Source: Bacteroidota bacterium
GTDB lineage: Bacteria; Bacteroidota; Bacteroidia; Chitinophagales; Chitinophagaceae
Length of the DNA: 64,000 nt
Assembly (NCBI GenBank): GCA_016868775.1
Contig: VGFT01000003.1
Location: 1-64,000, forward strand
Direction of reading: 5' to 3'
Shown here: positions 5,551-37,515 of the stretch, piece by piece
Layout: every line of letters starts with the position of its first letter
How positions within the stretch are numbered: the first letter of the stretch is position 1
Notes under the pieces: model-generated
Told to the model about the DNA's origin: nothing
The model's input: the letters and a program-made list of their open reading frames with translations, nothing else
Databases searched by the model: none
Position numbers and translations under genes: made by a program

Positions 5551-5608
5551 GTTTAGGGTTTAGGCCTGCCTGACGGCAGGGTTTAGGGTTGAGGGTTTAG
5601 CGTTTAGA
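5551..5608. repeat. GTTTAGG 7-bp array split by a 16-bp palindrome, array D
   Basis: Two units GTTTAGG (5551-5564), then the palindrome CCTGCCTGACGGCAGG (5565-5580; 6-bp stem, TGAC loop), then GTTTAGG, GTTGAGG, GTTTAGC, GTTTAGA (5581-5608). The palindrome sits exactly between units without disturbing phase. The array begins one base from the start codon of the DUF4442 gene (5547-5549). Confidence 0.95.
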
Positions 5609-5677: not shown

Positions 5678-5713
5678 AAACTACCCAAACTGTCCAAACT
5701 ACCCAAACTAATC
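5678..5713. repeat. 9-bp tandem array (AAACTACCC family), array E
   Basis: Four 9-bp units: AAACTACCC, AAACTGTCC, AAACTACCC, AAACTAATC. It ends five bases before the ATG at 5719. Its complement, GTTTGGGTA-like, forms the array at 36691-36726. Confidence 0.9.
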
Positions 5714-33692: not shown

Positions 33693-34271
33693 TCAGGGGA
33701 GTGTATAGCGTTGTTGATTGAGTTGGCTCATGACGGAAGGGAAGCCTTGTTGAAAAACAGATTCGAGGACGGCAACAGCCGCATCGATCTTGTGTTTGAC
33801 CAGCGGTTCTTCTTCCGGTTTCCATTTGCTGAGTACGAAATCGGCTTGCATGCCTTTAGGAAAATCGTTTCCGATGCCGAAGCGAAGGCGGGCATATTGG
33901 GTGCTGCCGAGTACTTCCTGGATGCTGCGCAGGCCGTTATGACCGGCGTCGCTTCCGGCGGTGCGGAGGCGGAGTTGATCGAGCGGGAGGGCCAGGTCGT
34001 CGACGATGACCAGAATGTTTTCATGGTGTATGTTGTCTTTCTCCATCCAATACTTCACGGCTTTGCCGCTGAGGTTCATGTAGGTGGTGGGCAAGAGGCA
34101 GACATATGTTTTCCCCTTCCATTTTACCTCGGAGACGTAGGCCAGTCGGTCGTTTCGAAAGGCACCGCCATGTTTTTGCACGAAGGTGTTGACCACATCG
34201 AAGCCGATGTTGTGGCGGGTGTGGGCGTATTCATTTCCCACGTTACCTAGGCCGACGATCAGGTATTTCAT
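33693..34271 (-). CDS. pth: Peptidyl-tRNA hydrolase
   Basis: Frees tRNA from peptidyl-tRNA that dropped off the ribosome. I place the start at ATG 34271 (MKYLIVGLGNVGNEYAHTRHNIGFD), three codons inside the longest frame; 192 residues is normal. The catalytic histidine is in TRHNIGFDVV, with KPTTYMN-like LLPTTYMNLSGKAV, VIVDDLALPL and GHNGLRSI also present. It follows rplY after a terminator-like hairpin. Confidence 0.95.
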   Translation of the reverse strand: MKYLIVGLGNVGNEYAHTRHNIGFDVVNTFVQKHGGAFRNDRLAYVSEVKWKGKTYVCLLPTTYMNLSGKAVKYWMEKDNIHHENILVIVDDLALPLDQLRLRTAGSDAGHNGLRSIQEVLGSTQYARLRFGIGNDFPKGMQADFVLSKWKPEEEPLVKHKIDAAVAVLESVFQQGFPSVMSQLNQQRYTLP

Positions 34272-34297
34272 TGGGTTCAAGATACTCGATTCAACAT

Positions 34298-34329
34298 AAA
34301 AAGACCCGCATCCGGTGGGGTGCGGGTCT
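34298..34329 (-). terminator. Terminator after rplY (minus strand)
   Basis: Perfect 9-bp stem AGACCCGCA/TGCGGGTCT (34302-34310 with 34321-34329) and a 10-base loop. On the minus strand it is followed by a T-run (34301-34298). It separates rplY from pth. Confidence 0.85.
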
Positions 34330-34349
34330 GAAAGTTTTGATTGGAGCGA

Positions 34350-34979
34350 TTATTTTTTCGCGGCCGGAGCGGCAGCGGCGGGGGCGGCGGCCGGAGCGGC
34401 AGCGGCGGCCGGGGAGGCGGCTTCTTCTTGTTTGAGCTGACGGGTCAGCACCACGGAAGCGATGGGAATGCGGGGGGAGTTTAGGATCTCATAGTTCTCC
34501 ACCTGTACATCTTCCACGCGGATATTTCCGTTGAGGTCGAGGTTATCGATGGGCACATCGATTTTTTCGCGGAGGTGTTTCGGATAGGTCTTCACCTTGA
34601 GGGATTTCATCTTGGTGATGAGTTTACCGCCGTCTTTTACGCCTTTGGAGACGCCGGTGAAGTGAAGGGGAATGTCGGCTACGACTTTTTTGTCTTCGAC
34701 GAGTTCCAGCAGGTCGATGTGGGTGAGTTTGTCGCTCACCTTGTCGAATTGCAGGTCCTTCATGATGGTCCGATAGGTTTGTCCGTCTACTTTCACTTCG
34801 GCGATCTGGAAGTTGGGGGTGTAGGCCAACTTTTTGAATGCGGCTGCCGGTGCGTGAAAATGGATCTCATTTGCACCCCCGTAAATTACACCGGGCACCA
34901 GGTCCTGAGAGCGGAGTTGACGGGTGGCTGACTTGCCGAATCCGGTCCTCAGTTGTCCTTCGATGGTAATCGTGTTCAT
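34350..34979 (-). CDS. rplY: 50S ribosomal protein L25 (CTC form)
   Basis: Binds 5S rRNA in the large subunit. The 209 residues include the L25 domain (1-95, MNTITIEGQLRTGFGKSATR) and the beta-barrel CTC domain (about 100-190, GVKDGGKLITKMKSLKVKTYPKHLREKIDVPIDNL in form). The tail (190-209) is a long Ala/Pro/Lys stretch, low in complexity. It lies 18 bases after prs on the same strand, the usual prs-rplY order in this phylum. Confidence 0.95.
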   Translation of the reverse strand: MNTITIEGQLRTGFGKSATRQLRSQDLVPGVIYGGANEIHFHAPAAAFKKLAYTPNFQIAEVKVDGQTYRTIMKDLQFDKVSDKLTHIDLLELVEDKKVVADIPLHFTGVSKGVKDGGKLITKMKSLKVKTYPKHLREKIDVPIDNLDLNGNIRVEDVQVENYEILNSPRIPIASVVLTRQLKQEEAASPAAAAAPAAAPAAAAPAAKK

Positions 34980-34997: not shown

Positions 34998-35945
34998 TTA
35001 CTTGTTTCGCCGCTGCGAATGGACAAAGAGGCTGGTGATGCTCTTGTTTTCAAACGCGTTGCGGATGGCCACCGCAAAGAGTTCAGCTACGGAGAGCACT
35101 TTTAGTTTTGGGCTCTCTTGTCGGAGGGGGATCGTATTACAGACCACCAGTTCTTCCAACACGCTGTTCTCGATGTTCTCGTAGGCCTTGCCGCTGAGCA
35201 CCGGATGGGTGATCAGCGCCCTGACCGAACGGGCTCCCTTGTCCTTGAGCATCCCAGCACTTTTTGCCAGGGTGCCGCCGGTGTCGCAGATGTCGTCGAT
35301 GATGACCACATCCCGGTCGGTGACGTCTCCGATGACCACCATGCTGGCGATTTCGTTGGCTCGTTTCCGGTGTTTATCGCAAATGACCATTTCTGCGTTG
35401 AAATAGCTGGCGATTTCCCGGATCCGGTTGGTAGCCCCTACATCGGGGGCGGCAAAGGTAAGGTTTTCCAGCTTCAGATTCTGGAGATAGGGGATGAAAA
35501 CGGCGTGGCTGTCGAGGTGGTCAACCGGTATGTCAAAATACCCTTGGATCTGGGGGGCGTGGAGGTCCATGGTCACGATCCGGTTGGCCCCAGCGGCGAC
35601 TAACATATTGGCGATCAGCTTACTACCAATGGCTACCCGGGGGCGGTCTTTTCGGTCCTGTCGCGCGTACCCATAATAGGGAATCACGGCAATGACCTTG
35701 TAGGCGGAGGCTCTTCGGGCGGCATCGATCATCAGGAGCAGTTCCATGAGGTTTTCGGCCGGGGAGAAGGTGCTTTGAACGAGGAATACGTAGTCGCCCC
35801 GTACACTTTCCATGAAAATGGGGCTGATCTCCCCATCGCTGAATCGTTGGATGTTGACTTGTCCGAGGTGTGTTCCATACGAGGCACAGATCTGCGTGGC
35901 CAGCTCCTGTGATCCGGTGCCCGCGAATATTTTGGCTTTTTGCAT
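34998..35945 (-). CDS. prs: Ribose-phosphate pyrophosphokinase
   Basis: Makes PRPP from ribose-5-phosphate and ATP, feeding purine, pyrimidine, His, Trp and NAD synthesis. Start at ATG 35945 (MQKAKIFAGTGSQELATQI); the 32-codon upstream extension is not part of the family. At 315 residues it is normal. Marks: PYYGYARQDRKDRPR, VDLHAPQIQGYFDIPVDHL in form (here TMDLHAPQIQGYFD), RKRANE and the PRPP loop VVIIDDICDTGGT. A near -7 box (TATCTTCG, minus strand) lies about 20 bases upstream. Confidence 0.96.
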   Translation of the reverse strand: MQKAKIFAGTGSQELATQICASYGTHLGQVNIQRFSDGEISPIFMESVRGDYVFLVQSTFSPAENLMELLLMIDAARRASAYKVIAVIPYYGYARQDRKDRPRVAIGSKLIANMLVAAGANRIVTMDLHAPQIQGYFDIPVDHLDSHAVFIPYLQNLKLENLTFAAPDVGATNRIREIASYFNAEMVICDKHRKRANEIASMVVIGDVTDRDVVIIDDICDTGGTLAKSAGMLKDKGARSVRALITHPVLSGKAYENIENSVLEELVVCNTIPLRQESPKLKVLSVAELFAVAIRNAFENKSITSLFVHSQRRNK

Positions 35946-36085: not shown

Positions 36086-36691
36086 GTGATGGTCGCCAGG
36101 ACCCCCACCCCGCTTTTATTGGCGCGAATCTTGGGCACCTCTAAGGGTGCTCAGATTTTAAGGGAGTCCGTTGAAGGCGATCTGGGTCGGCTGGCTACGA
36201 TGGACCCGGAGGAGCTCATGCAGGTGCGGGGGTTGGGTGCGGAGCGGGCGGACAGGCTATGGGCTGCCTGTGAGTTGGGTCGGAGGTTATTGACTTTTCG
36301 GTTGGGGCAGGTGCGAACGCCCTTGCAATCTTCATCTGAGGCTGTCCGGTATTTGCAGGCGCAGATCGGGTATTTGGATCACGAGGTTTTTTGCGTGATG
36401 TATTTGAATCGGGCCTTGCGGTTGGTCAAGTTGGAGCAGGTGAGTCAGGGTGGTATTACGGGCACGGTTGCCGATCCGCGGATCATTTTCCTAAAGGCCT
36501 TATCGCTACGGGCGGTGAGTTTGATCTTGGGGCACAATCACCCTTCGGGTGCTTTGCATCCAAGCGAATCCGACCGCGAGCTCACCGAAAAAATACGCCG
36601 GGCCGCGGAGTATTTTGATATGACGGTACATGATCACCTGATCGTGAGTCGGGAGGGGTATTACAGTTTTGCGGACGAAGGCATATTATAG
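36086..36691 (+). CDS. radC: RadC-family protein, short N-terminus
   Basis: A JAB/MPN-fold protein of the RadC family (its role in repair is disputed). The helix-hairpin-helix region is LMQVRGLGAERADRLWAACELGRR (about 45-67), and the JAB metal motif is intact: H150-N-H152-P-S-G, with D163 in SESDREL. The C-terminus HDHLIVSREGYYSFADEGIL is standard. The frame starts at GTG 36086 or ATG 36089, and about 20-30 N-terminal residues of the family (the DRPREKLL block) are missing. An in-frame TGA at 36050 blocks extension. An A7 and a G6 run lie just upstream, so a frameshift near the start is possible. Its TAG stop is the first base of repeat array H. Confidence 0.85.
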   Translation: MMVARTPTPLLLARILGTSKGAQILRESVEGDLGRLATMDPEELMQVRGLGAERADRLWAACELGRRLLTFRLGQVRTPLQSSSEAVRYLQAQIGYLDHEVFCVMYLNRALRLVKLEQVSQGGITGTVADPRIIFLKALSLRAVSLILGHNHPSGALHPSESDRELTEKIRRAAEYFDMTVHDHLIVSREGYYSFADEGIL

Positions 36692-36726
36692 TTTGGGCAG
36701 TTTGGACAGTTTGGATAGTTTGGGTA
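36691..36726. repeat. 9-bp tandem array (GTTTGGGTA family), array H
   Basis: Four units: GTTTGGGCA, GTTTGGACA, GTTTGGATA, GTTTGGGTA. It begins at the last base of the radC stop codon and is the reverse complement of the family seen at 5678-5713. Confidence 0.9.
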
Positions 36727-36727
36727 G

Positions 36728-36744
36728 TTAGTTTATAGTTAGTT
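36728..36744. repeat. Left inverted repeat around the four-helix-bundle gene
   Basis: TTAGTTTATAGTTAGTT, perfectly complementary to 37161-37177. Similarity extends outward and inward to about 26 of 30 bases. Confidence 0.9.
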
Positions 36745-36766
36745 ATTAGTTCAATTAAAAATAGAT

Positions 36767-37146
36767 ATGGCAACAGTTAGGAGATATGAGGATTTGGTGG
36801 TTTGCAGAAAGCGAGGATGTTGAATAAACAGGTCGTTCAGTTGACGAGTTTGCAAGCATTTGATCGGGAATGGAAATTAAAGGACCAGATCCGGAGGTCG
36901 GCTGGTTCCGTGATGGACAATATCGCTGAAGGATTCGGCCGTATGGGGAATCGGGAGTTTGTGAATTTTCTTCTAATCGCCAACGGATCTGCTATGGAAA
37001 CCCGCTCCCAACTCACCCGAAGCCTGGACTATGGATACATCTCTGCTGTCTCGCACGACGAACTCATGTCGCTTCTCGATGAAATATCACGAATGATCTT
37101 TAGCCTGATCCGATACCTTAGAAAAAACGATAAAACCGGTCAATGA
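36767..37146 (+). pseudogene. Four-helix-bundle (S23/IVP-like) gene with a frameshift
   Basis: The family (TIGR02436-type, related to proteins encoded in 23S rRNA intervening sequences and to Avd of diversity-generating retroelements) forms a small helical pentamer. ATG 36767 opens MATVRRYEDLVVC in one frame, which stops at TGA 36821. The rest, QKARMLNKQVVQLTSLQAF through IAEGFGRMGNREFVNFLLIANGSAMETRSQL, continues in the next frame to 37146. Inserting one G in the TTTG at 36801-36804 (TGG for the W of DLVVWQKA) joins both parts into about 126 residues. Either a recent frameshift, a sequencing error, or a shortened product from TTG 36802. Inverted repeats flank the gene. Confidence 0.8.
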
Positions 37147-37160
37147 TATCGCTAACCAAC

Positions 37161-37187
37161 AACTAACTATAAACTAATTATCCAAAC
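37161..37187. repeat. Right inverted repeat plus one inverted 9-bp unit
   Basis: 37161-37177 is the perfect 17-base complement of 36728-36744, and 37179-37187 (TATCCAAAC) is the complement of the array unit GTTTGGATA. Together with array H it frames the four-helix-bundle gene. Confidence 0.9.
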
Positions 37188-37189
37188 TC

Positions 37190-37210
37190 GGCGCAAGCTA
37201 CGCTTGCGCC
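37190..37210. repeat. Palindrome at the 3' end of the DUF3467 gene
   Basis: Perfect 9-bp stem GGCGCAAGC/GCTTGCGCC with a TAC loop. The loop and right arm include the TAG stop (37200-37198 on the minus strand) and last codons of the DUF3467 gene, so the palindrome has shaped the C-terminus of that protein. No T-run follows, so it is not a classical terminator. Confidence 0.85.
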
Positions 37211-37515
37211 GTCGGTCCGCCGAAATTCAACGGCAACTGCACTTCTTCAATATCCTGAATGGGACCATGTGCGCCTTCAAACTTTTGGATGTTTTCGGTG
37301 AGCGCACGCATGAGTCGCTTCGCATGTTGCGGGGTGAGGATGATGCGGGACTTCACTTTGCTCTTGGGGGTGCCGGGCATCACGTTCACAAAATCGATCA
37401 CGAACTCGGCATGTGAGTGCGTAATGATGGCCAGGTTGGCATATTGTCCTTCAGCGACCTCCTCGGAGATCTCAATGTTCAATTGATTGGGCGCAGGGGG
37501 ATTGTTCTCTTGCAT
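37198..37515 (-). CDS. DUF3467 protein
   Basis: A 105-residue protein matching DUF3467, a small conserved bacterial family of unknown function. The core is QYANLAIITHSHAEFVIDFVNVMPGTPKSKVKSRIILTPQHAKRLMRALTENI in form, with the typical RIxLTPxHAKRL segment. No signal peptide. Two bases separate it from the upstream secreted-protein gene's stop (37518), so they share a transcript. The last codons lie in a palindrome. Confidence 0.88.
   Translation of the reverse strand: MQENNPPAPNQLNIEISEEVAEGQYANLAIITHSHAEFVIDFVNVMPGTPKSKVKSRIILTPQHAKRLMRALTENIQKFEGAHGPIQDIEEVQLPLNFGGPTAQA

Follow-up and report, generated by a model that had tools for sequence, protein, structure and literature searches.

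Among described systems, the intervening sequences (IVSs) of 23S rRNA genes stand closest to the locus analyzed here. In the available parts of the report on Coxiella burnetii, the IVS of this bacterium is 428 nt long and has terminal inverted repeats forming a 28-bp stem, and its cleavage by RNase III was shown (PMC4990558). Three (in some strains two) tandem GACAGAT heptamers precede the start of its S23p open reading frame (ORF), which is said to decay, and the origin of 23S IVSs is still called unclear in the same parts of that source (PMC4990558). According to an excerpt of another study, rRNA insertions of CPR bacteria also contain the domain of this protein family (PMC11270868). Repeats of partly similar build have been described in other contexts: (i) intergenic TAACTGA heptamers, reported in the sections available as direct repeats of Beggiatoaceae, Cyanobacteria and some Bacteroidetes (MacGregor, 2015; PMC4679880), and (ii) foldback-type elements such as Galileo, whose terminal inverted repeats are built of internal repeats, as stated in the available portion of the article (PMC3573991). 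Among the matches listed from the open-licence literature, no account was found of an inverted heptamer frame around free-standing genes of the S23-type family.

We analyzed a 64,000-nt stretch of DNA (hereafter the window; positions 1 to 64,000 of contig VGFT01000003.1, assembly GCA_016868775.1) of a bacterium of the Chitinophagaceae. We consider it fairly probable that the window holds a probably decayed copy of a widespread free-standing element, in which a four-helix-bundle gene lies between inverted, locus-specific arrays, and which would be the intergenic counterpart of S23-type 23S IVSs. At the level of sequence, the comparison shows the inverted frame, the heptamer build and orientation of the arms, sense placement after stop codons, matched turnover of the two arms, the use of one site by more than one clade, and gene-less sites in relatives.

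The framed gene between radC and DUF3467

The family gene of the window is situated between the stop codon of radC and that of a convergent DUF3467 gene (Table 1). The initial annotation had described a 17-bp perfect inverted repeat with a longer imperfect extension, plus a 9-bp array on the left and an inverted unit of it on the right. The perfect pair (36728-36744/37161-37177) was recovered inside arms of 35 nt, which are 89% complementary and spaced by 402 nt; the left array was likewise found, and one inverted unit on the right (36708-36720/37176-37188) is 92% complementary. Local alignment of one flank with the other gave a score of 50; when the flanks of 93 family genes were dinucleotide-shuffled, 930 shuffles in all, no score exceeded 29. 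The window arms belong to a minority type, with units longer than a heptamer.

Table 1. Features of the radC-DUF3467 locus (window coordinates).
Feature	Position	Strand	Remark
radC-family gene, upstream neighbour	36086..36691	+	left array begins at the radC stop codon
Outer left array, 9-bp unit AGTTTGGnn	36688..36729	+	45 further stretches in the same genome match
Inverted repeat, left arm	36717..36751	+	31 of 35 positions pair with the right arm
Expected gene start: ATG, 18 codons, stop	36767..36823	+	frame breaks; one base missing compared with relatives' genes at this site
23S_rRNA_IVP/S23-family four-helix-bundle reading frame	36802..37146	+	345 bp, 114 aa from TTG
Inverted repeat, right arm	37154..37188	-	pairs with 36717-36751
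Palindrome, 10 bp, 3-nt loop	37189..37211	.	overlaps the DUF3467 stop codon; read by eye
DUF3467 gene, convergent downstream neighbour	37198..37515	-	domain match

The assignment of the enclosed gene to the rRNA intervening sequence family, made from the sequence alone, was borne out by profile searches, in which it exceeded the curated cut-offs of both PF05635 (E 1.7e-30; 105.8 vs. 33.8 bits) and TIGR02436 (E 4.7e-30; 104 vs. 24 bits). PF05635 was the only domain matched in the one reading frame scanned between the arms; in NCBIfam the family is named only "four helix bundle protein". No rRNA match was obtained between positions 35500 and 38500 of the window. The predicted minimum-energy structure of the RNA has a closing stack of 28 contiguous pairs (36717-36744 with 37161-37188), in agreement with the suggestion of a long stem with the gene in its loop; the window element thus shares with 23S IVSs complementary ends that form a predicted stem. 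The folding of the whole element is no better than that of its shuffles (z -1.24). Directly after the right arm lies a palindrome, the right half of which is the coding end of DUF3467. In a relative (L034), as read by eye, both of its halves differ and pairing is kept, a pattern resembling the copying of one half from the other.

Near its 5' end the window gene is one base short in comparison with three genes of relatives at the same site, and its ATG opens only 18 codons. On this basis, the copy seems to be decayed, i.e., a pseudogene. The other family gene of the same genome (L002) appears, by eye only, to have a similar gap in the same short region near its start, and the two family domain matches of this genome begin at profile positions 7 and 8, which agrees with the start gaps. 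These one-base gaps may reflect decay, assembly error or frameshifting.

The AlphaFold2 model of the window protein is a confident four-helix bundle (mean pLDDT 95.3). In the Foldseek search the top ranks were taken by 2gsc and 2rld, each a five-chain entry, and lower down by Avd, a protein of diversity-generating retroelements (DGRs; 4dwl and 8ube, TM up to 0.78, E 0.04 or worse). Avd is a pentamer and binds nucleic acid. Judged by these relatives in fold, the family protein probably binds nucleic acid as a pentamer.

Extent, build and placement of the inverted frame

Of 205 family genes found, the 198 whose flanks were complete were analyzed; they came from the genus of the window, a sample of its phylum, and named genomes of many phyla, the last represented by the best 80 loci of a longer listing; this holds for all counts below that include the named set. 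The family profile was built with one stop-containing seed row left out, and an inverted score above 25 was taken as a frame. The 198 genes are not independent, since only identical domains were removed and orthologues remain.

Conserved inverted ends, which the initial annotation expected in other family members, were found in 147 of the 198 genes, but among 292 other ORFs of these loci in only 13 (named set, best 80 loci); in 51 genes the frame was absent by the score test. Framed genes made up 71 of 87 in the genus, 15 of 30 in the phylum sample and 61 of 81 in the named genomes (best 80 loci). A score of at least 34 was reached by 98 of the 198 family genes vs. a single one of the 292 control ORFs, and in a direct-orientation version of the test only 23 of the 198 scored above 25 (named set in both, best 80 loci). 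For the 93 distinct family genes of the genus, the median inverted score was 34, vs. 18 in their 930 dinucleotide shuffles (maximum 29); 77 of them exceeded the 99th percentile of the shuffles and 64 the maximum. In 1104 cross-locus flank pairs of the genus the median was 18 and the 99th percentile 33. Shuffles, cross-locus pairs and control ORFs rule out a chance origin of the inverted flanks.

Of the 296 genomes sampled from the phylum, 232 have a match to the family, 220 of them above the curated cut-off, and the copies are often many. By title, 27 of the best 80 named loci are from outside Bacteroidota; one gave no family row (L185) and two had short flanks (L196 and L231), and among the 25 genes remaining 21 are framed. 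These loci include Clostridia, Acidobacteria, Planctomycetes, Proteobacteria, Chloroploca, Cloacimonadota, a Kaiserbacteria metagenome-assembled genome (MAG) and a MAG labelled Methanophagales, although MAG labels may hide misbinned contigs. In a MAG labelled Terriglobia (L227), the flanks of the gene at 2501-2818 form inverted arms of at least 155 nt, built of AGTTCTC heptamers and truncated by the 300-nt test window (score 310).

The arms are mostly built of heptamers. Among 101 strongly framed loci, the upstream arm has a period of 7 in 78 and of 8 in 7, the rest having another period or none. Heptamer periodicity and the frame overlap incompletely: in 38 of the 51 frameless genes one flank or both are 7-periodic, compared with 9 of 73 control ORFs located more than 350 bp from a family gene, and 27 of the 147 framed genes have no such flank by the periodicity test. 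The most frequent number of heptamers per arm is five with free rotation (35 of 78) and four with fixed rotation (43 of 126). Aligned units of different loci have T-N-R-G-T-N-N in common, and their remaining positions are locus-specific. The fit to TNRGTNN amounts to 3.04 bits, compared with a mean of 2.42 and a maximum of 2.70 in 60 trials in which the letters of each unit were shuffled. The units were phased by fitting, which by itself creates part of the consensus; the excess of information over the shuffles is genuine, though small. Independently of phase, G exceeds C in the upstream arm of 95 of the 101 strong loci.

The turnover of the arms was followed by picking the most 7-periodic window of one flank blind to the other; the comparisons are directed and related, and thus not independent. 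Over four rising bins of protein identity, the score against the opposite arm of the same locus was 35.7, 33.7, 30.5 and 39.1, whereas that against the orthologous arm was 20.8, 23.3, 29.2 and 46.4. The arm of the same locus matched better in 50 of 61 comparisons at 45-60% identity and in 99 of 125 at 60-75%; at 75-88% the two were even (30 vs. 27 of 61), and above 88% the orthologous arm was better (13 vs. 3 of 20). In total, the score within the locus was higher in 182, lower in 72 and tied in 13 of 267 comparisons. An earlier within-locus figure (49 of 52) was inflated, as the arms had been selected by their match, and the blind version is fairer. The two arms of a locus change together, because their mutual match stays high while the orthologous match falls with divergence. 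We infer that one arm is copied from the other, which is likelier than compensatory mutation alone, since the latter would hardly replace the unit in every repeat.

Placement relative to neighbouring genes (predicted ORFs of at least 90 aa) was scored in 196 loci with near neighbours (named set, best 80 loci). The upstream gene lies on the same strand as the family gene in 174 of these. More telling are the 152 loci in which both neighbours run in one direction, since the family gene is in sense with them in 143 (best 80 named loci in both counts); ordinary neighbouring gene pairs in these loci share a strand in 234 of 293 cases. Part of this bias could reflect selection for being read with the operon. 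In framed loci, the arm starts a median of 3.5 nt after the same-strand upstream gene (at most 15 nt in 105 of 126) and ends a median of 6 nt before the same-strand downstream gene (at most 15 nt in 65 of 110). An RNA-family scan of 40 of the best 80 named loci revealed no rRNA.

The radC and DUF3467 genes are side by side in 28 genomes of the genus. Orthologous sites were expected to be empty in some relatives, and this is the case: the family gene is present between the two genes in 8 genomes and absent in 20. In several gene-less sites (e.g., L035, L036, L038 and L040) only 9-18 bp, both stop codons included, separate the last sense codons, and in two (L039 and L060) arrays are seen by eye where the family gene is missing. 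Three occupied sites were added from other loci, giving 11 in all, each with the gene in sense with radC. These 11 genes do not form one clade (p-AU 9.6e-6), which means repeated use of the site or replacement of its gene. Six copies occur at the L002 site; the starred branches of the tree force them into at least two groups, and the copy of the window's own genome is opposite in orientation to the other five; by eye, the spacers of relatives hold facing arrays without a gene (L252, L260 and L263) or no arrays (L261, L264 and L265). Inheritance and loss are commoner than gain, as one change on the tree suffices for 9 of the 15 multi-copy sites listed. No target-site duplication or exact element boundary was found, the gene-less radC sites being too diverged for a duplication to be read, and a distant DNA search of plasmids gave no match.

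Gene-less arrays and competing explanations

In the window's own genome (G000), 47 stretches match the left array at E up to 1, including the two arms of the locus itself, although only two family genes are present. This genome forms the basis of the main rival for the window locus itself, according to which the arms are a general gene-end repeat: AGTTTGG arrays would follow stop codons, those of radC and DUF3467 would face each other at a convergent pair, and the family gene would merely lie between them. Such an origin is suggested by the 45 further matches and by their position, since 17 of 39 array clusters, from 31 places, come after a gene end in sense orientation, with 7 in antisense and 15 not placeable; in addition, facing arrays with no family gene between them were seen by eye in L300, L302, L303 and L316, and several clusters of G000 appear by eye as facing pairs with short loops. 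On the other side, tandem arrays away from the family are rare in relatives: in stretches of up to 20 kb, 9 were found in 200 kb of ten family-bearing genomes and 3 in 180 kb of nine family-free ones, and only one of these 12 has more than three copies. Moreover, 99 of 143 loci in which both neighbours are codirectional, and which thus contain no convergent pair, have inverted flanks (named set, best 80 loci), and the units are locus-specific. We regard the gene-end repeat as an unlikely explanation of the locus. The arms in G000 behave as a dispersed gene-end repeat, and may be either gene-less derivatives of the element or a repeat that was taken up by it. Because array densities per non-coding DNA are nearly equal in family-bearing and family-free genomes (3.66 vs. 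2.98 per 10 kb), we do not propose that arrays are dispersed throughout the genome by the gene.

Several other arrangements of arrays were noted in the same genome. Facing 9-bp arrays enclose a 191-aa reading frame that matches the HicA toxin domain (PF07927, E 5e-15; L279:1489-2252; G000:C1, about 34,170-34,930); the arrays form 20-nt perfect and 30-nt 93% inverted pairs with a spacer of about 700. A tmRNA gene (L273:960-1545; G000:C2) has arrays of the 9-bp type on both sides, the upstream ones being able to form a short-loop hairpin. In the window, facing intergenic arrays with differing units (7-mer and 9-mer) occur about 70 bp apart at 5578-5607 and 5678-5710, and no family gene separates them; at 2736-2764, a CATTGGA-type heptamer occurs four times outside long reading frames.

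For the locus as an undescribed free-standing mobile form, as first proposed, the balance is mixed. The widespread inverted ends, the empty sites, the use of the radC site by more than one clade and the predicted closing stack of 28 pairs agree with the proposal, while the 51 frameless genes of 198, the scattering of the arm sequence without the gene in its own genome and the seemingly pseudogene state of the window copy speak against it.

As we envisage the free-standing element, it would be transcribed together with the upstream gene and would probably be message-borne. Base pairing between its arms in the transcript would place the gene in a loop, and RNase III would trim the stem, as in 23S IVSs, which would free the messages of the neighbours and keep them expressed. 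Now and then, copies would enter new intergenic sites by means of machinery that the element itself does not encode.

A far-reaching version of this scheme, which we hold to be decidedly unlikely, is a pan-bacterial, message-borne selfish element, whose pentameric protein ring would recognise RG dinucleotides spaced in phase along its own heptamer arm; copying would regenerate both arms from one hairpin, each copy would thereby have a private, self-matched address, and 23S IVSs would represent the small number of copies that reached rRNA. Four to five heptamers would serve five subunits, which may be likened to TRAP, a protein that wraps spaced triplets.

Two further explanations invoke enzymes acting in trans, neither of which (RVT_1 or Y1) was matched in G000. 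According to the first, which is very unlikely, an RNA element is copied by a reverse transcriptase, as the related Avd serves DGRs. The resemblance of the protein model to Avd (TM up to 0.78, with a Foldseek E of 0.04 or worse), the sense placement after stop codons and the matched renewal of both arms would be in line with such copying, but 36 of 42 genomes of the genus have no RVT_1 match, including ten with at least nine family genes (three of the ten being less than 90% complete).

The second assumes REP-like DNA hairpins spread by a Y1 transposase (RAYT/IS200-type), with the four-helix gene as a passenger, and is highly improbable. A Y1 match was found in 18 of the 42 genus genomes (17 over the curated cut-off), all of which carry the family, and in none of 12 family-free genomes (Fisher p 0.0003); copy numbers of Y1 and the family also correlate, including in 25 genomes of at least 2.5 Mb (rho 0.61, p 0.001), although the correlation ignores phylogeny and some genomes are incomplete. 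However, 12 family-positive genomes of the genus, that of the window included, have no Y1 match, and inverted flanks were present in 6 of 20 Y1 genes examined from a longer listing, where they are, by eye, palindromes of another type and not heptamer arrays. An invertible switch, in which recombination between the arms flips the gene, can be dismissed as extremely improbable: the L002 copy of G000 is indeed opposite to the five others at its site, but it does not group with them on the tree, and the sense orientation in 143 of 152 loci between codirectional genes (best 80 named loci) argues against flipping.

The free-standing element, which we favour over these alternatives, suggests a little-studied and widespread mobile or RNA-processed element, as the small uncharacterised family also occurs between ordinary genes in many phyla. 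Common border rules (oriented inverted heptamer arrays, sense placement after stop codons and co-changing arms) make these orphan genes one testable class. The same rules connect this class with 23S IVSs, and predict RNA processing and binding of the arrays by the protein.

Comparison with known systems

Avd of DGRs, which has a similar fold by Foldseek, works with a reverse transcriptase and template/variable repeats, and G000 is a genome without an RVT_1 match. REP/RAYT systems consist of short hairpins at gene ends, some of them without a gene; they differ in that the inverted flanks of Y1 genes of the genus look by eye like palindromes, not heptamer arrays, and G000 contains no Y1 match. 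Galileo, according to the available part of the source, is a eukaryotic DNA transposon with a transposase (PMC3573991), whereas no transposase was found in the window element in the one frame scanned.

The TAACTGA repeats share with the arms a tandem, intergenic heptamer build and an occurrence in Bacteroidetes, and their reverse complement, TCAGTTA, fits TNRGTNN; they differ in being described, in the sections available, as direct repeats located mostly near start codons (PMC4679880). The available main text of that article contains no mention of "intervening sequence", "23S" or "four helix", and so offers no link to the S23-type family (PMC4679880).

The likeness to the Coxiella 23S IVS, as described in the available parts of the report, comprises the protein family, the sense orientation of the ORF within the host transcript, a 28-bp stem formed by the inverted ends, and tandem heptamers (PMC4990558), which have an RG core when read as ACAGATG. 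The Coxiella IVS lies inside helix 45 of 23S rRNA (PMC4990558), whereas the free-standing form lies between protein genes, with a unit that differs by locus. As a location inside 23S rRNA is a defining feature of 23S IVSs, we do not count the free-standing form as a member of this group; by the features compared here, it resembles an element of the same type at a different location.
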